Assembly (NCBI GenBank): GCA_026645735.1
Contig: JAPKMT010000013.1
Coordinates: 1 to 64,000, forward strand
Origin: Flexilinea sp.
GTDB lineage: Bacteria > Chloroflexota > Anaerolineae > Anaerolineales > Anaerolineaceae
Reading direction: 5' to 3'
DNA length: 64,000 nt
In this document: positions 1,796 to 33,032 of the stretch, one piece after another
Position numbering within the stretch: the stretch's first letter is position 1
How the letters are laid out: each line of letters opens with the position of its first letter
Position numbers and translations under genes: made by a program
The notes under the pieces: generated by a model
What the model saw: the letters and a program-made list of their open reading frames with translations, nothing else
Database searches by the model: none
Told to the model about the DNA's origin: nothing

Positions 1796-2660
1796 ATTTT
1801 TCCAATAATTTCATTAATTCCGGAATTTCTGTAACTACTTTTACGCCTGCTGAATCAAAGGCTTCGATCTTGGATTTTAAAGTCCCGATTCCTGCTTCTA
1901 TATAAGCACCAGCATGGCCCATCCGTTTTCCAGGTGGAGCGGATTTTCCAGCCAGAAAAGCAGCAACGGGTTTACTCATTTGATATGCAGCAAATCTGGC
2001 TGCCCGTTCTTCTTCCAATCCACCTACTTCTCCGATCAGAAGGAGTCGTTCGGTATAAGGATCCGTTTCAAACATCTCCATTGCTTCCACAAAAGAAGTG
2101 CCCTGAAGTATATCTCCTCCAATCCCGATACAGGTACTGACACCGATGCCTTGTTCCTTCATTGCTTCCATAATCATATAGCTCAGGGTCCCGGATCTCG
2201 AAATAATTCCGACTTTCCCGGCAATCACACAATCTTCAGGAGTAATACCAATTTTTACTTCGCCGGGATTGATAATTCCGGAACAATTGGGACCAACGAA
2301 CCGGACTTCTTTTGTCTTCATGTAATGATAGACTTTGGCAATATCCTGCACCGGAATTCCTTCCGTTATGCAAACAACGAGCTCCACACCCGAATCAGCA
2401 GCTTCCAGTAAAGCATCTGTTGCCTGTCGTGCCGGTACAAATATGATGGAAGCATTGGCCTCAGTGACTTCAACCGCTGCCTGCATCGTGTCAAAAACCG
2501 GAACTTTTTCATCAAGAACCCAGCTTCCACCATGGGAGGGGGAAACACCTGCAACTACCTGAGTTCCATAATTAATCATTTGACGGGCATGAAAATTTCC
2601 TTCACGACCGGTGATACCCTGTACAATGACGCGTGTTGATTTATTAATCAGGATGCTCAT
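1794..2660 (-). CDS. sucD: Succinyl-CoA ligase, alpha subunit
   Basis: Alpha subunit (288 aa) of succinyl-CoA synthetase, which interconverts succinyl-CoA and succinate with formation of ATP or GTP. The N-terminal CoA-binding Rossmann domain contains the VQGITGREG motif. The phosphohistidine lies in MGHAGAYIEAG, matching the E. coli active-site His context. Length is normal. The start is 3 bp after the sucC stop, so the pair is translationally coupled. The C-terminal coding end overlaps the T-tract of the opposing ACP terminator. Confidence 0.95.
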   Translation of the reverse strand: MSILINKSTRVIVQGITGREGNFHARQMINYGTQVVAGVSPSHGGSWVLDEKVPVFDTMQAAVEVTEANASIIFVPARQATDALLEAADSGVELVVCITEGIPVQDIAKVYHYMKTKEVRFVGPNCSGIINPGEVKIGITPEDCVIAGKVGIISRSGTLSYMIMEAMKEQGIGVSTCIGIGGDILQGTSFVEAMEMFETDPYTERLLLIGEVGGLEEERAARFAAYQMSKPVAAFLAGKSAPPGKRMGHAGAYIEAGIGTLKSKIEAFDSAGVKVVTEIPELMKLLEK

Positions 2661-2663
2661 CTT

Positions 2664-3800
2664 TCAATTGCCTCCGACGATCGTTGCAGCTTTTTTTACA
2701 GCATCAACCATAGACGGAGCGAACAGGATGTCCAGGTCCTTTAAAATTCGAATACCAGAATCTGCATGCGTCCCGCCCATGTGGACAATAATCGGAATCT
2801 CCGTTCCATATTTTTCGATCGCAGCCTGCAATCCATAAGCGATATCGTCACAACGCGTCATTCCGCCATAAATATTCACCAGGACTACTTTCACCTGAGG
2901 ATCATTCAGCAGAATATCCAAAGCCGCTATGACTTTATCGATATTAACCCCTGCTCCTAAATCCATGAAATTGGCAGGGTGACCACCGTTGTCCTGAATG
3001 CAATCCAGAGTCGCCATCGTCAGTCCCGCCCCGTTGACTAGACATCCGATGTTGCCATCCATTTTAATATAATCAAGCCCGTGTTTTCTGGCTTCGAATT
3101 CGCCATACGCTTCCACATCATAATCACGAAAATCTACAAGGTACTCCTGTCGAAAACGCGCATTTTCATCCAGAGTAATTTTTCCATCCAGAACCAGTAG
3201 CCTTTGATCCTTGGTAATCACCAGAGGATTGATGGCAACCATTCGTGCATCCATATCGCAGAACAGCTTCCACATTCCCAGGCAAATTTCAGTCAACCCG
3301 CGAAGGTACTTCTGTTGAAAATCAAGTCGATTCGCAAGCTGGCGAACCTGATATCGTTGAAGTCCAATTAATGGGTCAATATATATGCGATCCAGGTTAT
3401 CAAAAAGTGCATTTGCCGCTGTCTCGATGTAAATCGTACCCGATTCATACATCATCAGCAGCGGCATGCGTTTTTCCCGATCCAATGTAATTAATAGGAA
3501 ATACTCTTTTTCGATTGAAAGTGCTTCATCAATCAAAACGTTGCGAACAGATAAACCATGAATTTTTTTCGAAAGAATTTCAGAGGCAGCTTTTTCAGCT
3601 TCCTGTGGCGATTTTGCTAGGAGTATACCACCGGAGGTTCCGCGTCCTTCTGCTAAAACCTGCGCTTTAACGACAACCGGACATCCAATTTCCTCAGCGA
3701 TCTGTTTCGCTTCCCGGGCAATGGATGTAACATGACCTTCCGGTATGGGTATGCCATAATTTTTAAAAAATGCCTTCGCCTGGTACTCGTGGAGCTTCAT
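2664..3800 (-). CDS. sucC: Succinyl-CoA ligase, beta subunit
   Basis: Beta subunit (378 aa) with an ATP-grasp nucleotide-binding domain (N-terminus MKLHEYQAKAFFKNYGIPIP) and a C-terminal CoA-ligase domain containing GGHPANFMDLGAG and NIYGGMTRCDDIA. It pairs with SucD to give the heterodimer or heterotetramer. A GGAGG Shine-Dalgarno lies just before the ATG. It is followed at once by sucD and preceded at 21 bp by the SPFH gene, so all may share a transcript. The sequence does not clearly show ADP versus GDP preference. Confidence 0.95.
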   Translation of the reverse strand: MKLHEYQAKAFFKNYGIPIPEGHVTSIAREAKQIAEEIGCPVVVKAQVLAEGRGTSGGILLAKSPQEAEKAASEILSKKIHGLSVRNVLIDEALSIEKEYFLLITLDREKRMPLLMMYESGTIYIETAANALFDNLDRIYIDPLIGLQRYQVRQLANRLDFQQKYLRGLTEICLGMWKLFCDMDARMVAINPLVITKDQRLLVLDGKITLDENARFRQEYLVDFRDYDVEAYGEFEARKHGLDYIKMDGNIGCLVNGAGLTMATLDCIQDNGGHPANFMDLGAGVNIDKVIAALDILLNDPQVKVVLVNIYGGMTRCDDIAYGLQAAIEKYGTEIPIIVHMGGTHADSGIRILKDLDILFAPSMVDAVKKAATIVGGN

Positions 3801-3821: not shown

Positions 3822-4868
3822 TTATCCCTTCAAAAATTCATCGACAGAATCTTTACTGATTCGATAAGCTGAACCGATCTTTCGTGCTTTCAGATCGCCT
3901 GCCTGAATGGCAGCCATCACATCTTCTTCAGAAACTTTTAACAATTGAGCCACTTCGGATGGCGTCATGACATTATTTTCAACGGGCGCTGCTGCGGCAG
4001 GAACGGCAGCGGGTGTTTGCTGCTGCGCATTTGTACCGTAAGCCTGTGAAATAATATTGCCTAAACCTACACCGGCACCAATTCCTGCTGTCAATCCTGC
4101 GCCGCCATTCGGATTCTGTGCCGCATCTCTTAATGCGTCCGCTGCCTGCAATTGAGTATAGACATTCATATCCAGCATACCCATTGCTCGTAATTCTTCA
4201 GCAGATTTTTCGGATGGTTTCAAACTTGCGATATAGAAGGATTTCAATAATAAACCGATCGCAAGGAAATCATCTTGTGCTTTCGCTTTTACGGAAGCTC
4301 CCAATTCTTCTGTCAAGCCAATCAGCTGCAGGACATTTTGATTGGCAGTAGTTGTTCCCAGAATATCTTGGATCTTGGATAAAAGCATGGAGCGCAACCG
4401 GTTTTCAATCGATGACAGGGAATATGACTGTGAAGCACCCGCAATTTGTGTGACAAATTGTTGCGGATCACTTACCTGAAAACTGTAAGTACCAAAACCT
4501 TGCAGCAGACTGATTCCCAAGCCGACACCGGCATTCCTGACAATAATCGGTTGAGAGGTTCCCCATTTCACATCGGCAAATTCCTTCATACTGACATAGT
4601 ACACTTCTGCAGTGAAAGGACTCCGATTGTTAAAAGCTTTTCCCAACAAATCCGTCAGCAGCGGAAAGTTGGCTGTAGAAATCGTATGACGTCCGGGGCC
4701 CAATACGTCCAATGCTTTTCCATCACGAAAGAATATTGCTCGCTGTGACTCACGGACAATGACCTGCGAACCAAATCGAAGATCAGCAACACCTTCTTCC
4801 GGAAAATGATGAGCAATCTCATCCTGCATTTCATTTGGATATTCAACAACATCAAAAATTCTGGCCAT
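3822..4868 (-). CDS. SPFH-domain protein with C-terminal excisionase-type HTH
   Basis: The first ~250 residues form an SPFH/Band-7-like domain of the YdjI or virion-core-protein-like type (for example RESQRAIFFRDGKALDVLGPGRHTI), a class linked to membrane scaffolding and stress. A Gly/Ala/Gln-rich linker follows. The last ~50 residues match the helix-turn-helix/excisionase domain (MTPSEVAQLLKVSEEDVMAA, then AYRISKDSVDEFLKG). No membrane segment is evident. An SPFH domain joined to an HTH_17-like domain is an unusual combination; the HTH may serve as a protein-binding winged helix and not bind DNA. Probably co-transcribed with the upstream 4999-5529 gene and sucCD. Confidence 0.8.
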   Translation of the reverse strand: MARIFDVVEYPNEMQDEIAHHFPEEGVADLRFGSQVIVRESQRAIFFRDGKALDVLGPGRHTISTANFPLLTDLLGKAFNNRSPFTAEVYYVSMKEFADVKWGTSQPIIVRNAGVGLGISLLQGFGTYSFQVSDPQQFVTQIAGASQSYSLSSIENRLRSMLLSKIQDILGTTTANQNVLQLIGLTEELGASVKAKAQDDFLAIGLLLKSFYIASLKPSEKSAEELRAMGMLDMNVYTQLQAADALRDAAQNPNGGAGLTAGIGAGVGLGNIISQAYGTNAQQQTPAAVPAAAAPVENNVMTPSEVAQLLKVSEEDVMAAIQAGDLKARKIGSAYRISKDSVDEFLKG

Positions 4869-4998
4869 TCTTATTTCTCCTCATCTTGTTCATTCAAAGG
4901 CAGTTATTCAGTGATAAAAAAGAATCAGACACAAAAACAGACATTGAATAACGACCATCCATTACAATAACAAAAATTATAAAAAAAAATAATTCTAG

Positions 4999-24204: not shown

Positions 24205-25735
24205 CAAAGAAAATGCGGATTATGATGATGATTTTTTGACCGATGAGAAATTAATTTCACAGAATTTTGAATCTGAAGATAACCTGCCTTTTGATTTTTC
24301 CGAAAAAGACGAAGAAGAAATCCTGTCCGGATTTGCTGATGAGGAATCCAGCGAAGGGGAAGCCAGTTATGAAGATCCGGTTCGTCTGTATCTTAAGGAA
24401 ATCGGATTGATTGACTTGTTGGACACTGATAGTGAATTCCGATTGGCGACCTGCATTGAAGCGGATCGCTGCCTGGACAAGCATGAAAATTCGCTGAAAA
24501 ACGCACTGGAAGGTATTTTCTTTCAAAAGCTATATGAGTGCATCTGTAAAGATTTGACAAAAAGTTGGAAGGAATTTCGAAAACAAATTAAAGAGTATGG
24601 ACCAAAAGCGAAAGAACCGGATTTTCCAATGCTGATTAAAGAAGCCCAACAATTATGCAGAACCTGGAAAATCGATGCGCCATCCTATTTACGGTCTTAC
24701 CTGGACAATGGAGTCTGGGGGCAGGATCAGAAATGGGGTTCCGTAGTAACGCCTTTATATGCAGTTTTTTTAAACTTTTATCTGCTGCCCGAAGTGATGC
24801 AGGATTCTTTAGATGAAATCGTGAAAGATAAAAAGAATAAACTGCCGTCAACAAAAGAATTGATCGCTTTAATCCCATGTGAAATTGACCTTGCAGCTCA
24901 GGTTAATAAAGTCCAGATTCAGGCTGAAGTCGCCAACCAGGTGCTCGTCCGGGCAAATTTACGTCTGGTAGTGAGCATTGCAAAACACTATATGGGAAGG
25001 GGTATTTCGTTTTTAGATCTTATTCAAGAAGGTAATATCGGCCTTTTAAGAGCTGTCAACAAATTTGACCCGCGCCGTGGTTTCAAATTCAGCACTTATT
25101 CAACCTGGTGGATCCGTCAGGCAATCAGTCGTTACATTGCTGAACAGGCGAGGTTGATTCGGATTCCAGCGCATATGTTTGATTCCGTGTCAAAACTATT
25201 GAAAATCCAGCGAAATATGGTGCAAAAATTAGGCAGAAACCCGCTGCTGGAAGAATTGGCGATGGAAGCGCAATTCATCGAAGAGAAGGATGTACAAGAG
25301 CTAGCGAAGCTCCAGGAAGATAATCTGCCGCGGGATCCTGACCTGCAAAAAAGAGTCTCTGCAGCGGTCAATAAAGTCCAGAAATTGTTACAGTCCGCAG
25401 AAGAACCTATTTCGTTGGAGCATCCGGTAGGCGATGAAGAAAGCGGACAATTAGGCGATTTTATTGAAGACGAAGATGCTCTTGGACCCATGGATGCAGC
25501 TTCACGCGAATTATTAAGGGATCAGGTCCAGAAAACACTGGATATTCTCACAGAGAGAGAACGCCAGGTTCTCGAATTACGATTCGGATTAACGGATGGA
25601 GAGGAAAGGACATTGGAAGAAGTCAGCAAAATGTTTGACATTACCCGGGAAAGGGTACGACAGATTGAAGCAAAAGCCCTGCGAAAATTACGTCATCCGA
25701 TGCGCAGCAGACTTCTTCGGGAATATTTTTCATAA
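24188..25735 (+). CDS. rpoD: RNA polymerase primary sigma factor
   Basis: 515-residue group 1 sigma-70. After an acidic N-terminus comes region 1.2 ([18 protein letters not shown]), then regions 2.1-2.4 ([35 protein letters not shown]) and regions 4.1-4.2 ([31 protein letters not shown]). It directs RNA polymerase to the TTGACA/TATAAT promoters seen in the window. The ATG lies inside dnaG with an AGGGGGG Shine-Dalgarno. Confidence 0.96.
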
Positions 25736-26239
25736 ATGGATGATTACTATCATAATTTTCATAAAATTATCGGCAGTTTTCCGGTTGTGGAGTTTTCCGC
25801 CTTACTCTGTTTGACAGATCCTCAAGGAAATCTGTTGCTGATTCGGGATGAAAGAGAAACATATTGGAAACTCCCGGGTGGAGAGATTTTGCCTGGTGAA
25901 AGTTTGATTGATTGTCTGCGACGCACAGTTTTTGATAAAACGGGCATTTACCTGGAAAGTGCCGTTCTATTAAAACTTTTTACCGGAAAAAATTTGAGTT
26001 TTATATCGGATGAGAATGCAAATATCTCCCCCGTTGTAGCAATGTTTCTTCCCAAAAAAGTGCGCGGCACTTTGAAAAGGAACCTGGAACGGGAAATGCG
26101 TTTTTTTGCAACCTGGAATATCCCGGAGGGAAAAATTTATCCACCTATGAAAGCCTCTGTTCAATTCTTCATTGAAAACTTTCCTGGTGGAATTCCTTTG
26201 AAACCTTTTGATTTCGATGGCTTTTCGGAAGAAACCTGA
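25736..26239 (+). CDS. Nudix-fold protein with degenerate Nudix box
   Basis: 167 residues starting on the base after the rpoD stop, so it is probably translated by re-initiation. The fold is visible (LLIRDERETYWKLPGGEILPGE), but the Nudix box, normally G-x5-E-x7-REUxEExGU, reads G-x5-E-x7-RTVFDKTGI. The metal-binding glutamates are replaced by Thr64, Asp67 and Lys68. Catalysis of nucleoside-diphosphate hydrolysis is therefore doubtful; a regulatory or binding role is possible. It converges on the ACP gene with 11 bp between stops. Confidence 0.75.
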   Translation: MDDYYHNFHKIIGSFPVVEFSALLCLTDPQGNLLLIRDERETYWKLPGGEILPGESLIDCLRRTVFDKTGIYLESAVLLKLFTGKNLSFISDENANISPVVAMFLPKKVRGTLKRNLEREMRFFATWNIPEGKIYPPMKASVQFFIENFPGGIPLKPFDFDGFSEET

Positions 26240-26250
26240 TTGATTTTGAC

Positions 26251-26508
26251 CTAATGAATTCCAGATTCCTGCTTCTCAATAATAAACATAGCCAGTTCTT
26301 CGATTGTGTCGAAAGAATCAGAATTCAGTTCATAGTCATCAATATGAACACCGAAAATTTCTTCCACCATCAGCGCTAAATCAACCAGATTGAAAGAATC
26401 GATTAATCCGCTGGAGATCAATGGTTCATCAAACTGCAGCTCTCTTTTTGGCTGCTGAATGATTTCATTTTTTATCTTTTCGGTGAGGATTTCAATAGTT
26501 TGGTTCAT
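26251..26508 (-). CDS. Acyl carrier protein of the DltX/MBOAT operon
   Basis: 85 residues, acidic and helical, with the carrier motif SSGLIDSFNLVDL giving Ser38 for 4'-phosphopantetheine. In D-alanylation systems the analogous protein is DltC, which hands the acyl group to DltB. The last gene of a tight minus-strand operon; it begins 9 bp after the preceding stop with a GGAAA Shine-Dalgarno. Which acyl group it carries and which ligase loads it are not shown by the window; no dltA-like adenylating enzyme is present. Confidence 0.85.
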   Translation of the reverse strand: MNQTIEILTEKIKNEIIQQPKRELQFDEPLISSGLIDSFNLVDLALMVEEIFGVHIDDYELNSDSFDTIEELAMFIIEKQESGIH

Positions 26509-26517
26509 TGTTTCCTT

Positions 26518-27387
26518 TCAGTTTTCTGAAATATCTTTTATCGTTTGCAGTACTTTATCGAGCAATTGCATTGCAGTCAGATTCCGATAAGTCCATGCAT
26601 ATTGAAAAGACTCCGGATCTGAAAAATCTTCTTTATAAAATGTCAAATGAATTCCATCTTCAACCAATCCATGATTGGGAAGATCTTGGATTGCTGCCCA
26701 AAAATTCCAAAGCGGAATATCGTATTCAGCTGCCAGATCCGCAATATCCTGATTGATAGAATAATTCTTTTCGACATTATCAGCTTTTGTCATCAGGATC
26801 GGAAGTCTGCTTTGTGAAATTGTCAGATTGATGATTTCACGGAGATTCTCTTTAAATGAGGGTTGGTTGTATCCATCATTTGTTCCGAGAGAAATTAATA
26901 CAAAAGCCGGATTATTGATCCGATATTCACAGATAATCGGGACTTCTCCGGCTTCACAAATCGAATAATCCGTCCAGTAGTTTGATAATACGGACGCAGC
27001 AGAAAAACCAGGTTTTGCAGCCAGGCTGCGCCGTCCAAAAGATCCCCGGAAAAAATCAATAACCGGTTGTAATTGATCAACATACGTGCCGAGGTTAAAG
27101 TACCGTTGATCCAGATCATAGTTGCTAAGATACCAGTCTGTACTGGTATCACAGTCGCCGACCTTGGAAAAAGCCTTTGGATTGTTCCCTCTCTTCAGCC
27201 CATTGGATAAAATTTCCCTGGCTGTCTCAGAAAAATCAGGGATGATCGGAAGGTTTTGCCAGGTCATGCCATAATCAGACGGTGCCTGGTCTTCAGCCGT
27301 CTGAAAAAAAGAAAAACCTGATAAAAGGAAACCTATTAATAAAAGAATGATGGAATTGCGTGAATGATGAGGTTTGGGTTTTTTCAT
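26518..27387 (-). CDS. SGNH-fold protein with Cys in the nucleophile position
   Basis: 289 residues from the ATG at 27387, with an N-terminal membrane anchor (about 12-29). SGNH blocks are visible: SKVGDCDTS (block I, Cys79 where GDS has Ser), LISLGTNDG (block III GxND) and VEDGIHLT (block V DxxH). The GDC codon is TGT, so this is a real Cys. It is paralogous to 30790-31896. It sits between the DltD-like SGNH gene and the ACP gene, 10 bp after the former. It may be a second acyltransferase or a catalytically altered accessory. Confidence 0.75.
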   Translation of the reverse strand: MKKPKPHHSRNSIILLLIGFLLSGFSFFQTAEDQAPSDYGMTWQNLPIIPDFSETAREILSNGLKRGNNPKAFSKVGDCDTSTDWYLSNYDLDQRYFNLGTYVDQLQPVIDFFRGSFGRRSLAAKPGFSAASVLSNYWTDYSICEAGEVPIICEYRINNPAFVLISLGTNDGYNQPSFKENLREIINLTISQSRLPILMTKADNVEKNYSINQDIADLAAEYDIPLWNFWAAIQDLPNHGLVEDGIHLTFYKEDFSDPESFQYAWTYRNLTAMQLLDKVLQTIKDISEN

Positions 27388-27397
27388 GACTAGTAAA

Positions 27398-28501
27398 TCA
27401 ATTAAGGATGCTTTCCATCGCATCTGACAATAACTTTTGTATTTTTTCTGCACCCGTTGCGTCATAATGAATGGCGCTGTTTGAAAAATCAGAGGGTGGT
27501 AAAACATCCCACACATCAAGGACAGGCCATTGATTTGATTTACAGGTTTTTAATAAAGTCTCACGCCATACGTCATATGCCTGCCGCGGGTAGTAGAAAT
27601 TATAGCGGATTTCTGAATTTTTTCCATGACTCATTAATATTGGTTCATTCATGATTAAAATCGGAATTGGTCCTGCCAGCCGATGTGCTGCAGATAAAAT
27701 GTCCCATTCCATCATTTCATCCGGATATGGACCTTCAATCCCATGAAACATAGCGTCTGGATCGAGGTCCGTCATTGGTTTTGGATACTCCGAGGGATAA
27801 TTCTGATCGATTCCTGTCCCAGCCCACATAAATCCATACAACTGCAGACGGATCAGATCCGCCAGGTCACGCCGCTGTCCTAACAACGTCATCGCATAAC
27901 GATCCGGAGTGATTGATGCCGGCAGCCAGGCAGCATGTAAATCAGTTTTCTGAGCAATGGAAAGAAATTCCGACAGATTATTCTCTACCAGCGCTGTTGA
28001 CAATTGTTTGTCAAATGGGAATGATTCCATCGTCATCGACCAGACAATGAGATCCGGCTGATATTGGATCGCGCGATTAAGAATTAACAAATCTTTGGAT
28101 AATGCCAATGTCGGATATGCCAGATTATACGTTTGGATTTTCATTTTTTTGCCGTGGATCATCATTTCCTGTCGGTCCAAGCGTCCGGGAAGTGTCTCTT
28201 CCGGTTTCAATAAAGTTCCCCATAAAGAGGAATCTCCGATAAAAAGAACCCGAAAATCCTCATCCTGTTTTTCTGCACGATGTAGTTTGTGAGAGGCAAA
28301 CATCGCATCCAGATTGTTCAGACTGAAGTTATATGCGATTCGCGGATTTTCTCCAAAAGGCAATCTTTCTCTTCCAGGAAAAATCCAGTTATAAAAGCTG
28401 ATTTTCCCAAGCCATTGGACCGGTTGGGTCAGTGAATAAAGAACCAGTAGAACGAAAAGTATGAGCAGAGATTTACAGATGATGCGGAAAATTTTATTCA
28501 T
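27398..28501 (-). CDS. DltD-like SGNH acyltransferase
   Basis: 367 residues. One N-terminal membrane helix (about 5-25) puts the SGNH domain outside. Block I is LFIGDSSLWGTLL with an intact Ser, and the C-terminal His lies in SAIHYDATGAEKI. With an MBOAT partner such proteins (DltD, AlgX/AlgJ-type) place the acyl group on the surface polymer. The ATG at 28501 is used because a longer frame would overlap the MBOAT gene end; the gap to that stop is 8 bp. Confidence 0.8.
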   Translation of the reverse strand: MNKIFRIICKSLLILFVLLVLYSLTQPVQWLGKISFYNWIFPGRERLPFGENPRIAYNFSLNNLDAMFASHKLHRAEKQDEDFRVLFIGDSSLWGTLLKPEETLPGRLDRQEMMIHGKKMKIQTYNLAYPTLALSKDLLILNRAIQYQPDLIVWSMTMESFPFDKQLSTALVENNLSEFLSIAQKTDLHAAWLPASITPDRYAMTLLGQRRDLADLIRLQLYGFMWAGTGIDQNYPSEYPKPMTDLDPDAMFHGIEGPYPDEMMEWDILSAAHRLAGPIPILIMNEPILMSHGKNSEIRYNFYYPRQAYDVWRETLLKTCKSNQWPVLDVWDVLPPSDFSNSAIHYDATGAEKIQKLLSDAMESILN

Positions 28502-28509
28502 AATGGCCT

Positions 28510-29928
28510 TTAGAATAACCGGCTGAAGAATTGAAGTGCATCGCCGGTTTTCGGAATGACAAACCAAATCCAGCCTGTCATGACAAATAAAATCGTGATT
28601 GCTGTTGAAAAAAAAGTATAAACATGATAAAGAAATCGGTTATGTCCCTGAAGATTTATGATCCAATTTTTCGTTGCCTGGTAATAATGCTGATGTAAAA
28701 ACAAACCGGCGCCATGCCAGGCTCCCCAAATGAGAAAATTCAAAGTCACCCCATGCCAGAGGCCAATCAAAAGCATTGTTATCATCTGCGTTACCAGAAT
28801 AATGAGCCATTGTGGTTTGGGATGCGTTTTATCCGATCGCAGTTTGCGTGTTATTGGATTAAAAACATAGGAACGGATCCATTGTGTCAGTGTCATATGC
28901 CAATTGTTCCAAAATTTGGCAATATCCGGCTTCAGATAAGGATGCTGAAAATTTTCAGGAAGATGTATTCCAATCAATCGTCCCAATCCGATAGCGATAT
29001 CGGAATATCCTGAAAAATCGAAATAAATCTGCAGTCCGTAAAAAAACAAAGCGCTCCATGCCCAAATTGGTTGAATCCATAAATGTGAATTTTGAGCGGA
29101 CAATGAGACAATCGACAAGGAATCTGCAAGAATGAATTTTTTAAATAATCCTGATGCAATCCGTTCTAAAGCGGCAATAAAATCTTCAGACAATTCACTC
29201 GGAACAGCATGAAGATCTTTATAAAACCGATCATAACGATCAATAGGTCCCGCTGAAAGAGCAGGTGGAAAACACACATAAATCATAAAATCGCCGAGCA
29301 GCATTGAAAACTTCCGGCCATTTCTTGTATCAATCAATATAGAAAGAATGCGAAATACAAGGTACGATACTCCCAGCCAGCGAATATCAGAAACTGCAGC
29401 ATTTTCGGGAGATTGACCGGAAATCATCCGAAGGAACCGGCTGGTTCCCAATGTAAGAGACGGAGTTTTTAATAAAATCAATATGAAAATCAGGAAAACC
29501 ATTCCGGAAGTCAGCATGATTTTCTGGTCAGAAATATGCAGAAATCTTGTAAGGGATAACAAAAAAAGGAACAGCAAGAGAACAACCAAAAAAGGCTGCA
29601 GCTGCGGTGGTCTGGTTTTCGTGAAAAGACTGGGAATATCTAACAATCTTGTCAATTCCACACAAACAACAGCGGCAAGAATGATCAGGAAATCATGTAA
29701 ATCTTTTTTTTGTGTACTTCGGGAACAAAGATGCCAGCAAAGAATGGTCAGGCCTATTGAAAGAAAAGGAAACCAGAAATCGAAATTGCGAATCGGGACT
29801 ATCGGCTGTAGTTTGAAAACAAAAATTACGGTCAGGATCAGAAGCAAATTGCGTTGTAGGTTTCTTCCTGGCAAGTTTCTCAAAAGGATCAGGCAAGCAG
29901 ATAAGATCAGGATATCGGGGAGCAGCAT
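28510..29928 (-). CDS. DltB-like MBOAT O-acyltransferase
   Basis: 472 residues with about 11-12 membrane helices. The C-terminal half has the MBOAT signature: FWNNWHMTLTQWIRSYVF, then LIGLWHGVTLNFLIWGAWHG with the catalytic-type His. DltB moves acyl groups from a cytoplasmic carrier protein through the membrane to an external acceptor. The ATG directly follows the stop codon of the 38-residue DltX-like gene (TAA-ATG), so the two are strictly coupled. Confidence 0.9.
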   Translation of the reverse strand: MLLPDILILSACLILLRNLPGRNLQRNLLLILTVIFVFKLQPIVPIRNFDFWFPFLSIGLTILCWHLCSRSTQKKDLHDFLIILAAVVCVELTRLLDIPSLFTKTRPPQLQPFLVVLLLFLFLLSLTRFLHISDQKIMLTSGMVFLIFILILLKTPSLTLGTSRFLRMISGQSPENAAVSDIRWLGVSYLVFRILSILIDTRNGRKFSMLLGDFMIYVCFPPALSAGPIDRYDRFYKDLHAVPSELSEDFIAALERIASGLFKKFILADSLSIVSLSAQNSHLWIQPIWAWSALFFYGLQIYFDFSGYSDIAIGLGRLIGIHLPENFQHPYLKPDIAKFWNNWHMTLTQWIRSYVFNPITRKLRSDKTHPKPQWLIILVTQMITMLLIGLWHGVTLNFLIWGAWHGAGLFLHQHYYQATKNWIINLQGHNRFLYHVYTFFSTAITILFVMTGWIWFVIPKTGDALQFFSRLF

Positions 29929-30045
29929 TTAGAACCCCTGATAAATCCATAGCGGTGTCTCATCTACCGTGAAGATGATCAATCCAATGATCAGCAACGC
30001 CAGTAACAAAGCGACCAGGTTTTCATATGAAAAAAAGGATTTCAT
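29929..30045 (-). CDS. DltX-like membrane microprotein
   Basis: A 38-residue ORF: short polar N-terminus, one hydrophobic helix (about residues 10-25), then the C-terminal tail TPLWIYQGF. Firmicute DltX is also a single-span protein of ~50 residues located next to dltB and ending in a PFIYNEF-type motif; the spacing Pro-x-x-x-Tyr-x-x-Phe ending at the C-terminus is equivalent (Tyr35, Phe38). Work on DltX points to the C-terminal Tyr as the acyl relay. The gene fills the gap exactly between the lipoprotein (8 bp upstream) and the MBOAT gene (0 bp). No good Shine-Dalgarno, so coupled translation is likely. Confidence 0.8.
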   Translation of the reverse strand: MKSFFSYENLVALLLALLIIGLIIFTVDETPLWIYQGF

Positions 30046-30053
30046 CCGACTTA

Positions 30054-30443
30054 TCAATACCCGCAAAGACGCCATTCGCCCTGTTCTTTGACAACCGTAT
30101 GAATTTTTCCTTCCAACGGAAAATCGATGACCTCGTTACCATATGATGCTGCAATTTTGCCGGTACAAACCACAGAAGCAGTCTCACCGCTGTTTTCTTT
30201 GACTGAACAGGAGACATCGGAAAGTTCAGTTTTAACTCCCATAAATGCATCAATTTCACGCAAGGCGGTTTTCTCCCATGCAGCACAAGCAATCGTACCA
30301 ACTTGATCGCGTTCCTGTTTGACAATTGCTTGATAAAACGACTCAACAACTTTGGATGCATCTGAATCTTTTGATGATCCGGTACAGGCGCTGCAGACAA
30401 AGATTACGAAACAGAAAAGTAAACCTATTCGACGTTGTTTCAT
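30054..30443 (-). CDS. Small lipoprotein heading the acylation operon
   Basis: 129 residues. Signal peptide with lipobox VCSAC, then an NTF2-like or DUF4878-type domain (ASKVVESFYQAIVKQERDQV to EGKIHTVVKEQGEWRLCGY). Several cysteines in the mature part may form disulfides. The ATG at 30443 has GGAG at 30452-30455. The gene is the first of the operon; a role in holding substrate or partner outside the membrane is only inferred from position. Confidence 0.75.
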   Translation of the reverse strand: MKQRRIGLLFCFVIFVCSACTGSSKDSDASKVVESFYQAIVKQERDQVGTIACAAWEKTALREIDAFMGVKTELSDVSCSVKENSGETASVVCTGKIAASYGNEVIDFPLEGKIHTVVKEQGEWRLCGY

Positions 30444-30461
30444 TTTTTTTACTCCAGCATA

Positions 30462-30491
30462 ATTATAAATGTCAATCCGCTTTCTATTCAA
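30462..30491 (-). promoter_or_regulatory. Promoter of the DltX/MBOAT operon
   Basis: Minus-strand TTGAAT (complement of 30486-30491), 18-nt spacer, TATAAT (complement of 30462-30467). The start codon follows about 19 nt after the -10 box. A dispersed element begins 9 bp upstream of the -35. Confidence 0.6.
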
Positions 30492-30499
30492 TAAGAAAC

Positions 30500-30622
30500 C
30501 AGCAATTCGAAATATGGATATTCTTTTCAAATAAAGAGAGAAAGTATGTTGTTGTGTTGTTTTTGCGCGAGGCGCAAAAACAACACAACAACAAGTAATT
30601 CTTTCTATATTTGGATTTACTG
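30500..30622. repeat. Dispersed palindromic element, full copy
   Basis: Left outer arm CAGCAATTCGAAATATGG, right end ATATTTGGATTTACTG. Perfect 22-bp internal stem at 30547-30568 / 30572-30593 with a GAG loop. Located directly upstream of the acylation operon promoter. Confidence 0.88.
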
Positions 30623-30789
30623 AAAAGAAACCTAAAATACGAAATATTGATTTGTCTTTCGAATCATCGTTAACAGGCAGTCAAAAATATTTTATCCGCT
30701 CTGTCCTGTAAAAGGAAAATGATGCCTCCCAGTATTTCAAAAGCCAACAAAAAAGATTTCGCAGGATCTTAAAAAAAAGGTGAAAACGG

Positions 30790-31896
30790 TCAGAATAAAC
30801 CCAAACTGGTACCCGCAGTGTGCAGCGTTTTTAAAGCCCAATAACTGCGGATTTTCCATGCGTCCATAGAAAGATAGATATTCTCGCGCTGCGGATCCAG
30901 GCCTCCATTCTCCAATTTTTGAGCTTCAGCCCAAAAATTGAAAAACGGAATTCCATATTTCTTTGCAATTGTTGCCGTAATCTCGTTAATTTCATGACCT
31001 CCTTCCACATCATCGGCTTTCGAGGATAATATGGGCAGAGTCCCGTTTTCAATGATGGTATACACCAGTTCATCCAGATAATCATAATAAATACTGGTAT
31101 CCCAATCAGTATTCCAATTCGTGCCCAGATTTACAAAAATAATGGAAGGATTATTGACACGTAATTCGCAATGAATCATACTCTCATATGGATCGCAAAA
31201 GGCAGGATCTGCCCATGTTGATGTCAATACGGATGCCACACTCATCCCGTTGTTTACTGCCAAACTCTCTGCACCAAATGCCTTTGAATAAAATTGAATA
31301 GCATCTTCCAGATAACGTTCCTCATCAGGTAATTCATAATACCCGGTAATCTGATCATAATTTCCCAAGAAAACATTCGAATAGGACTGGCAATCGCCTA
31401 CCTTGGAAAAATAATCCGGATTGGTTCCCATATGGTTGACACCATACCAGAAAATTTCAGCGGCTGTCTTCGAAAGTTGAGGAACGACTGGCCAACTGCG
31501 CCAATCTGCAGCAGATGGATTTGGATCGATAATTTGCGGAGTATATTTTTGCTTGTTTTCTGGTGAAACAGTTGGCTGTAAAAATTCTTCCGGAACAATG
31601 CGATTCTCCAGGGCTGTTTCAGTAAAACGAATTTCAGGTTCGATAGGGACTTCCGGAGTTACCTGAGCTGCAGACACGGAAACTGTTGGAGTTATCGGAA
31701 CTGATGTTTGCGTAAACTGGACTGCCAGCGGTAAGGTGGAAATCATGGGATTGGATTCAGTTTGCCGGGAAGCGATAAAGGCTGAAATTTCATCCTCAAT
31801 TCGTTTCTCCTCCCTAAATACTGAATTGCAGGATGAAACGAAAAATACTATAAAAAGAATTATGAAATAAATAATCTCTTTCTTCAAAATACGCAT
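30790..31896 (-). CDS. SGNH-like lipoprotein with Cys in block I
   Basis: 368 residues from the ATG at 31896. The signal peptide ends in the lipobox FFVSSC (Cys23), followed by a ~100-residue Pro/Thr-rich linker. The SGNH-like domain is a clear paralog of 26518-27387: FSKVGDCQSYS (Cys in block I) and VNLGTNWNTD (block III with Trp for Asp), while block V lacks the expected His (RENIYLS). Catalysis is thus less likely here than in the paralog. It lies upstream of the acylation operon on the same strand, separated by a dispersed element. Confidence 0.72.
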   Translation of the reverse strand: MRILKKEIIYFIILFIVFFVSSCNSVFREEKRIEDEISAFIASRQTESNPMISTLPLAVQFTQTSVPITPTVSVSAAQVTPEVPIEPEIRFTETALENRIVPEEFLQPTVSPENKQKYTPQIIDPNPSAADWRSWPVVPQLSKTAAEIFWYGVNHMGTNPDYFSKVGDCQSYSNVFLGNYDQITGYYELPDEERYLEDAIQFYSKAFGAESLAVNNGMSVASVLTSTWADPAFCDPYESMIHCELRVNNPSIIFVNLGTNWNTDWDTSIYYDYLDELVYTIIENGTLPILSSKADDVEGGHEINEITATIAKKYGIPFFNFWAEAQKLENGGLDPQRENIYLSMDAWKIRSYWALKTLHTAGTSLGLF

Positions 31897-32069
31897 TTTT
31901 TTCTCATCAAAATGAACCAGACAGAACCTTTTGTACGTAGATATTAATGCAAGAATCATGCCATATTCTGGCTATACGCTTTTTTCCCGCTAATCAAAAA
32001 ACTTGAAAAGTCAAAGTGTAATTGTTTATGTAATTTATTCACATTCCAGGGTTTCAGTCTGAGTTCATG

Positions 32070-33032
32070 TCAATCAGGATGATTGAACATTTCAGAGAAA
32101 TATTTATTAATCGAATCCAGTCCGAGGTTCAGATCGCTTTTTAAGGGAACGATGAGATTTAATGCAGAAGGAATAACTTGAATGGTTAATGGCGTTTCAC
32201 CAATTAACTCACCATCGGCTTGTGCCGGGAGTCTGCGTTTACTTTGAATGGTGATTTTGTTGTACACATTGAAGTGGCATACTACTTCGCTTTCCTGTTT
32301 TTTCCCGCTGATTGCATTCTTCAGAATTTGAAATAAACTCGAAAAATTGGATGGACGTGTTACAAACACAGAAACCATGCCATCGTTGGGATTAAACTCA
32401 TTTTCTTCGATCCAGGAGTGGAGTCCAAAGCCCAGATTGGCAATGAAAACGTCAGCACCGCGAATTTGTTTCTGGTCGTCATCAATGGTCAAATAGAAAT
32501 CTGTGGCTAAAATATCACGCAATGATCGGCCAACATTCTTCAGGTATGCAAAAAAACCAAAACGGCGTTTTTCTTCCCGTGTAGTAAATTGCATCAGTCG
32601 GCTGTTAAAACCGACGCCGGCATTCAACATGCGATACCTGCCATTCACCAGCATCAGATCCACTGGAATGACTTGGCTGTTCTGTTTCAGCATGTTCAAA
32701 CATCGCTGGACATCGGTTGGAATGTAAAAATTGCGTGCAAATAAATTACCGGAACCAGTGGGAATGATTAATAAGGGGCAATTTACCTCTCTCAAAGCTG
32801 TGACAACTTCTGAAACAGTACCATCTCCGCCAGCAGCGGCAAAAACCTGAAATCCTTCTGATGTTGCTTTTTTGACTATAGGAGAGAAATTTTCGCCAAT
32901 TGAAGTCTGATGAATGGAAATATTCCATCCATTCGTATTTCCCCAATCCAATATTTTTTGTTCCAAAATATCCGCTTTTGTTAAACCGGCTTTTGGATTC
33001 AACAATACAAACAGGTTTTTTTCTGAAAACAT
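32070..33032 (-). CDS. Diacylglycerol kinase family lipid kinase
   Basis: 320 residues of the YegS/DgkB/LCB5 type. N-terminal catalytic domain with LNPKAG and the nucleotide loop AAAGGDGTVSEVV, then IPTGSGNLFARN; the C-terminal beta domain ends LPAQADGELIGETPLTIQV, typical of the family. It phosphorylates diacylglycerol or a related lipid at the inner membrane face. The ATG at 33032 is chosen because AGGGG lies just upstream; a GTG two codons earlier is the alternative. Confidence 0.88.
   Translation of the reverse strand: MFSEKNLFVLLNPKAGLTKADILEQKILDWGNTNGWNISIHQTSIGENFSPIVKKATSEGFQVFAAAGGDGTVSEVVTALREVNCPLLIIPTGSGNLFARNFYIPTDVQRCLNMLKQNSQVIPVDLMLVNGRYRMLNAGVGFNSRLMQFTTREEKRRFGFFAYLKNVGRSLRDILATDFYLTIDDDQKQIRGADVFIANLGFGLHSWIEENEFNPNDGMVSVFVTRPSNFSSLFQILKNAISGKKQESEVVCHFNVYNKITIQSKRRLPAQADGELIGETPLTIQVIPSALNLIVPLKSDLNLGLDSINKYFSEMFNHPD

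Follow-up and report, generated by a model that had tools for sequence, protein, structure and literature searches.

A conserved microprotein ending in WIYQGF is probably a separate acyl-shuttle subunit of a Dlt-like pathway in Anaerolineae

A small gene in Flexilinea sp. is real and conserved, and its product is most probably a separate acyl-shuttle subunit of a Dlt-like acyl export pathway that does not use D-alanine. The gene (30045..29929, minus strand) lies in the 64,000-nucleotide stretch of contig JAPKMT010000013.1 that was analysed as a whole (the window). It comprises 38 codons and a TAA stop codon, and its translation, MKSFFSYENLVALLLALLIIGLIIFTVDETPLWIYQGF (38 aa), is predicted to span the membrane once and has the C-terminal sequence TPLWIYQGF. 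The microprotein very likely works like DltX, but the tests that were run put it outside the DltX family. The original prediction had described a 38-codon ORF with this tail, and its coordinates were correct; the reading strand is the minus strand. The position given for the ORF, between a lipoprotein stop codon and the ATG of an MBOAT gene, also agreed with our reading: 8 bases separate the lipoprotein stop (30056-30054) from the microprotein ATG at 30045, and the TAA (29931-29929) directly abuts the MBOAT ATG at 29928. If translation began instead at a second in-frame ATG, at 30075, the microprotein would have 48 aa and overlap the end of the lipoprotein.

The WIYQGF hexapeptide is encoded at 29932..29949 (minus strand), and the codon of Tyr35, the proposed acyl carrier, is located at 29941-29943. 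This role is suggested by likeness to the motif of DltX and PatA; PMC12148441 defines the acyl-shuttle motif as FXYXXF and describes acetyl-Tyr in PatA. According to PMC5541007, DltX is a protein of about 50 aa whose extracytoplasmic part holds one invariant Tyr, and it is encoded by a small ORF that annotation often omits. An alignment of 24 microproteins (33-48 aa) showed one hydrophobic stretch in each row and a more positive charge on the N-terminal flank than on the C-terminal flank in all 24, and the small single-span protein is accordingly predicted to have N-in/C-out topology. P31, W33, Y35, Q36, G37, and F38 are invariant in this alignment. Neither an Rfam scan over 25500-32200 nor a PDB sequence search with the microprotein alone gave a match, and PDB searches with the microprotein profile or the profile of the SGNH protein C1 (described below) gave no meaningful match.

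The ORF was followed in three overlapping sets of loci. When the genomes of 41 relatives were searched with the window MBOAT, a microprotein ORF ending in P-x-W-[IV]-Y-Q-G-F was found at the MBOAT start in 24/24 evaluable loci (L035-L055, L058, L059, and the window); L056 and L057 end before the upstream region. In a scan of species genomes with an MBOAT alignment, the best 80 of 361 loci, which belong to Chloroflexota by record title, were kept (hereafter the named loci), and 77 of these 80 have the microprotein upstream of the MBOAT. The 77 tails read WIYQGF (74), WIYLGF (2), and WIYQAF (1). One of the three misses, L106, has its ORF interrupted by a run of N, and in the other two, L096 and L139, the lipoprotein and MBOAT genes are adjacent with no microprotein between them. 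The third set was fetched with the DltB model TIGR04091, without use of the motif, and consists of 20 loci, namely one true DltB (L218) and 19 loci of this MBOAT subfamily, including the window. The microprotein is located upstream in 16 of the 19. Two of the exceptions, G406 (L234) and G531 (L223), carry it on the same contig about 2 kb and 1.4 kb upstream of the MBOAT, and in G182 (L237), where only 293 bases precede the MBOAT, it lies on another contig. The microproteins of L220 and L221 end in FIYQGF, the strict form of FXYXXF. Thus, the conservation of the ORF and of Pro-x-x-x-Tyr-x-x-Phe, on which the original prediction depended, was borne out in all three sets (24/24, 77 of the best 80 of 361, and 16/19), and every miss is accounted for. 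The window MBOAT shares 79% identity with its counterpart in Flexilinea flocculi TC1 (L063); the genus Flexilinea belongs to the Anaerolineaceae (Chloroflexota; Anaerolineae; Anaerolineales).

The window operon is ordered as lipoprotein C3, microprotein, MBOAT, SGNH protein C1, SGNH-type protein C2, and acyl carrier protein (ACP). The lipoprotein and the MBOAT had been recognized earlier and were confirmed, while the second SGNH-type protein and the ACP at the end of the operon had been missed. The DltB-like MBOAT (28510..29928, minus strand; 472 aa) has no acyl-shuttle motif at its own C-terminus, and its nearest solved structures are those of DltB. His344 (codon 28897-28899) and His392 (28753-28755) align with positions 289 and 336 of DltB and are invariant in 20/20 MBOAT rows. 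PMC11035591 places His289 and His336 in the active site of DltB and gives the C-terminal motif of DltX as predicted to bind there. C1 (27398..28501, minus strand) is an SGNH-fold protein with an N-terminal helix. G89, D90, and S91 of its block I (GDS, within GDSS) and His345 are invariant in 71 rows, and we propose that it is the DltD/PatB-like final transferase. C2 (26518..27387, minus strand) has a TesA-like core in which GDC replaces GDS; G78, D79, and C80 are invariant in 20/20 rows (alignment A4), there are further invariant Cys, and the protein is perhaps a Cys-nucleophile or disulfide-locked SGNH variant. A second copy of C2 is located just upstream of the operon (30790-31959, minus strand). 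The ACP (26251..26508, minus strand; 85 aa) has a GLIDS site with Ser38 (codon 26395-26397) and scores 24.6 bits against PF00550 (cut-off 20.8). It is proposed to be the acyl donor to the MBOAT, as an analogue of DltC. C3 (30054..30443, minus strand), the first gene of the operon, encodes a conserved predicted lipoprotein that matched no family in Pfam; five Cys are invariant in 18 rows, the first of them at the presumed lipobox, and C3 is possibly an acceptor or accessory protein. A pattern scan located a 20-bp hairpin (30547..30593) between the operon and the upstream SGNH-type gene, which is a probable transcription boundary, and a promoter-like site (30491-30462, minus strand) preceding C3, of a kind no commoner here than in shuffled sequences.

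These components suggest a pathway of four steps. The acyl carrier protein would hold the acyl group on its phosphopantetheine, and in many relatives it would be loaded by an adjacently encoded AMP ligase that resembles fatty acyl-AMP ligases. On the cytoplasmic side, the carrier would hand the acyl group to the MBOAT, which, by means of His344 and His392, would transfer it to Tyr35 in the extracytoplasmic WIYQGF. The acyl-Tyr tail would then reach C1 and acylate Ser91, and C1, perhaps together with C2 and C3, would pass the group to an extracellular acceptor. Here we infer the topology, the acyl-Tyr chemistry, the role of the carrier as donor, and the identities of the acyl group and the acceptor. 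A more specific version for Anaerolineae, in which the ACP carries a carboxylic or fatty acyl group other than D-Ala and acetyl, and this group is exported through the DltB-like MBOAT, the detached Tyr microprotein, and a divergent SGNH transferase to a surface acceptor, possibly the lipoprotein of the operon, may hold and is put forward tentatively.

The gene content was compared across 56 microprotein loci (22 from the MBOAT search and 34 from the pattern and trans loci described below), 50 of which have at least 1.2 kb of upstream and 5 kb of downstream sequence. In these 50, a set partly picked by the microprotein pattern and scanned for ACP, ligase, and prfB with profiles from two, three, and one sequence, respectively, the 8 kb downstream of the microprotein contained the MBOAT in 47, C1 in 40, ACP in 35, C2 in 28, and an AMP ligase in 25, while the upstream gene was C3 in 34, prfB in 10, and neither in 6. 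C3 and all five downstream genes occur together in 13 of the 50. Of four ligases of relatives that were scanned, three had fatty acyl-AMP ligase as their top model and the fourth had long-chain-fatty-acid-CoA ligase, with every score short of its cut-off; DltA did not appear among the 25 best models listed. The ligase type therefore points to an acid other than D-Ala, in what is otherwise, with a carrier and an AMP ligase, the Dlt layout. Two results were counted against the acyl-shuttle reading. The ACP was not found within 8 kb downstream in 15/50 loci, and no AMP ligase was found in the window operon or in any of six genomes of the window's genus (E 1e-20), in a search whose positives were the source of the query (G371) and G190.

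The genes could also be a plain dlt operon that serves D-alanylation of a teichoic-acid-like polymer, with the microprotein as its DltX. We regard this as improbable, even though the MBOAT resembles DltB more than any other solved structure, the motif is common to the microprotein and DltX, an ACP is present, and one Anaerolineales genome (G067) does contain a true dlt operon. The curated cut-offs were failed throughout: the window MBOAT scored 217.8 against DltB TIGR04091 (cut-off 375), the carrier 24.4 against DltC TIGR01688 (cut-off 52.35), and the best DltA candidate in the window genome, from an assembly 92% complete, 47.5 bits (cut-off 559.85). The DltD models PF04914 and TIGR04092 gave no match to the window C1 (both E<=1), and DltD was not found in Pfam (E<=0.5) among 18 C1 members. 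One of these 18 proteins weakly matched DltX (E 0.051), which was taken as chance. The DltX model PF12459 matched 0/24 microproteins at E<=5, whereas the DltX of G067, used as a control, scored 31.4 (cut-off 25). Moreover, the ligases of relatives resemble fatty acyl-AMP or fatty-acid-CoA ligases as described above, and an MBOAT tree sets the clade apart from DltB. A plain dlt operon was therefore rejected on the cut-offs and the tree.

G067, which belongs to the same order, holds both systems, a further point against a plain dlt operon. Its dlt operon (L178, 7337-11421) encodes DltD, DltX, DltA, and DltB, each over cut-off, and its DltD passes both PF04914 and TIGR04092; it holds the WIYQGF microprotein and its MBOAT as well. 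Among 120 genomes of the class, DltX (Pfam) and DltB (curated) were each over cut-off in this genome only. Its true DltX ends in KFIYQGF, a hexapeptide identical to that of the L220 and L221 microproteins. The earlier description of the microprotein as DltX-like holds for the motif, the predicted single span, and the MBOAT neighbour; PF12459 does not recognize it as a DltX. In common with DltX, the microprotein has a single span of predicted N-in/C-out topology, a C-terminal end of the form aromatic-I-Y-x-x-F, and an adjacent MBOAT of the DltB type; unlike DltX, it mostly has Trp in place of the first Phe of FXYXXF, and its partner genes are not Dlt genes by curated models. A profile comparison aligned the microprotein with four DltX over the last 14 columns (P 1.2e-5) and with the C-termini of ten MBOATs with a fused motif over 28 columns (P 1.1e-6), and four reversed or unrelated controls gave P values of 0.017-0.13; DltX against an unrelated helix reached P 6.6e-4, so P values from such short profiles are not strong alone.

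Fused motifs were found in the same genomes. The window genome encodes three further MBOATs (L001, L002, and L003, on contigs C20, C11, and C9) with fused FIYGKF, FIYTKF, and FIYSGF, respectively. In contrast to these, a fused C-terminal shuttle motif occurs in 0/79 readable MBOATs of the named loci (best 80 of 361), the remaining one, L128, running into N. An MBOAT tree of 40 rows resolved three groups, namely the fused-motif MBOATs (11 rows, 100/99), DltB (5 rows, 100/100), and this subfamily (24 rows, 98/92), and leaves undecided which two of them are closest. The fused-motif group consists of MBOATs of the same genomes, with row L029 ending in SIYGKY, and the true Anaerolineales DltB falls in the DltB group. 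Row L238 had been assigned to the fused type by a loosely written expression, although the annotation in its record is DltB. This protein, encoded at 2265-3673 on a Ligilactobacillus murinus plasmid beside a bactofencin A family gene, is a DltB homologue whose tail, LDYVKF, loosely resembles the fused shuttle motif.

PatA/PatB-type systems and the Flexilinea operon both pair an MBOAT with an SGNH protein, and their hexapeptides match. However, the helix and motif are fused to the MBOAT in the PatA type and are encoded by a separate gene in the Chloroflexota system, and the ACP in the operon suggests acyl-ACP rather than acyl-CoA as the donor, unlike in PatA/PatB-type systems. The relay peptide comes in two forms, one fused to the MBOAT as a tail and one encoded by a gene of its own. 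According to PMC12148441, MBOAT-SGNH pathways other than Dlt lack a DltX-like microprotein. The present system looks like a counter-example to that statement, recurrent in one class, and suggests that there is a second pathway, distinct from Dlt, in which a separate microprotein carries the acyl group. For the acyl-Tyr relay, it would provide a second natural test case, in which the carrier differs and the acyl group probably does too. The original account of the Dlt shuttle reportedly appeared in Nature Microbiology in 2023.

Structure models were made for C1 and for the microprotein with its MBOAT. The C1 model (71 rows) has a pLDDT of 94, and its top PDB matches are SGNH/GDSL esterases; the DltD structures 3bma and 7dxm are among the fold matches with a TM-score of about 0.4. 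C1 is like DltD in its N-terminal helix and SGNH fold and unlike it in the lack of a DltD profile match and in reading S-x-x-H where D-x-x-H is usual. The absence of a DltD match for C1 in Pfam and NCBIfam, its weak resemblance to DltD by fold, and its S-x-x-H were also counted against the acyl-shuttle reading. A read-through model of the microprotein and MBOAT, built from 47 rows with L114 first, reached a pLDDT of 88.9, and its best PDB matches are DltB. The microprotein helix is confident in this model, and residues 35-40, the hexapeptide, have a pLDDT below 50. The model therefore speaks neither for nor against the fit to the MBOAT channel that the original prediction had named as a test, and the unplaced tail was listed among the points against the shuttle reading. 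The microprotein could instead be a structural or assembly subunit that joins the MBOAT and the SGNH protein and carries no acyl group; in favour of this reading, the tail was left unplaced in the model, and DltX itself is also described, in PMC12148441, as binding both. This appears quite unlikely, because the last eight residues, rather than the helix, are the most strongly conserved part, and because the tail fits a motif that, according to PMC12148441, is acetylated on its Tyr in PatA.

The reality of the gene was examined by chance and selection tests. The window contains 1328 ORFs that are 28 codons or longer, and one of them, the microprotein itself, ends in [FW].Y..F. In the named loci (best 80 of 361), 80 of 11180 ORFs have this ending, comprising the 77 microproteins and 3 others, and antisense control ORFs gave 0/702. 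Mean pairwise differences among 78 copies (the 77 from the named loci, best 80 of 361, and the window) at codon positions 1/2/3 were 0.36/0.17/0.59 over the last 27 codons and 0.000/0.013/0.417 over the hexapeptide. The changes in the hexapeptide are almost all at third positions, indicating that selection acts on the protein. The Pro at -8 and W, I, Y, and F of the hexapeptide are unchanged across the 78 copies; W/F, Y, and the last F are partly conditioned by how the copies were found, and P, I, Q, and G are not.

Two draft assemblies show the microprotein apart from its MBOAT. G434 and G435, the genomes of L096 and L139, each encode one high-scoring MBOAT of the subfamily with no adjacent microprotein (608.7 and 624.2 bits), their second MBOATs scoring below 200 bits. 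Each contains one WIYQGF pattern on a contig other than that of the MBOAT. There (L179 in G434 and L180 in G435), prfB lies upstream of the microprotein, with C1 genes, an ACP, and a ligase downstream; no MBOAT was found in either stretch, and L179 has three copies of C1. This natural split indicates that the peptide is no cis-acting part of the MBOAT gene. Readings of the ORF as a leader, as a translation-coupling element of the MBOAT, or as a product of chance, to which the tight fit between two genes and the stop abutting the MBOAT start would point, are highly improbable and were rejected, because amino acids rather than nucleotides are conserved by the codon-position pattern, the gene may slightly overlap the MBOAT or lie as far as about 2 kb from it, it has a separate locus in G434 and G435, and, of some 11,100 further ORFs in the named loci (best 80 of 361), only 3 end in the motif.

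The spread of the system was estimated with a 21-base pattern for WIYQGF followed by a stop in 400 genomes drawn from the phylum Chloroflexota. The pattern occurs in 34 of them, 33 being among the 55 genomes of the same class and 1 among the 345 outside it, and the reversed pattern occurs in none of the 400. The sole match outside the class (G333) has no MBOAT, C1, C2, or C3 match in 19 kb and was taken as chance. In the separate draw of 120 class genomes, 29 had a match to the DltB model, and 20 hold this MBOAT subfamily (the 19 fetched loci and G067). Therefore, the system is recurrent in the class and far from universal.

Literature searches on DltX, MBOAT-SGNH shuttles, Chloroflexi DltB, and the Anaerolineae envelope gave no account of this system among the matches listed, and little literature on such envelope chemistry was found for Chloroflexota. 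The original prediction held that such tiny genes are easily missed by gene callers, which is not always the case, as one deposited record includes the gene. The record is that of the 212-kb plasmid of Leptolinea sp. HRD-7 (L242), which carries the gene set with no C1 gene annotated beside the MBOAT, and in which the microprotein (4784-4927) is annotated as a hypothetical protein.
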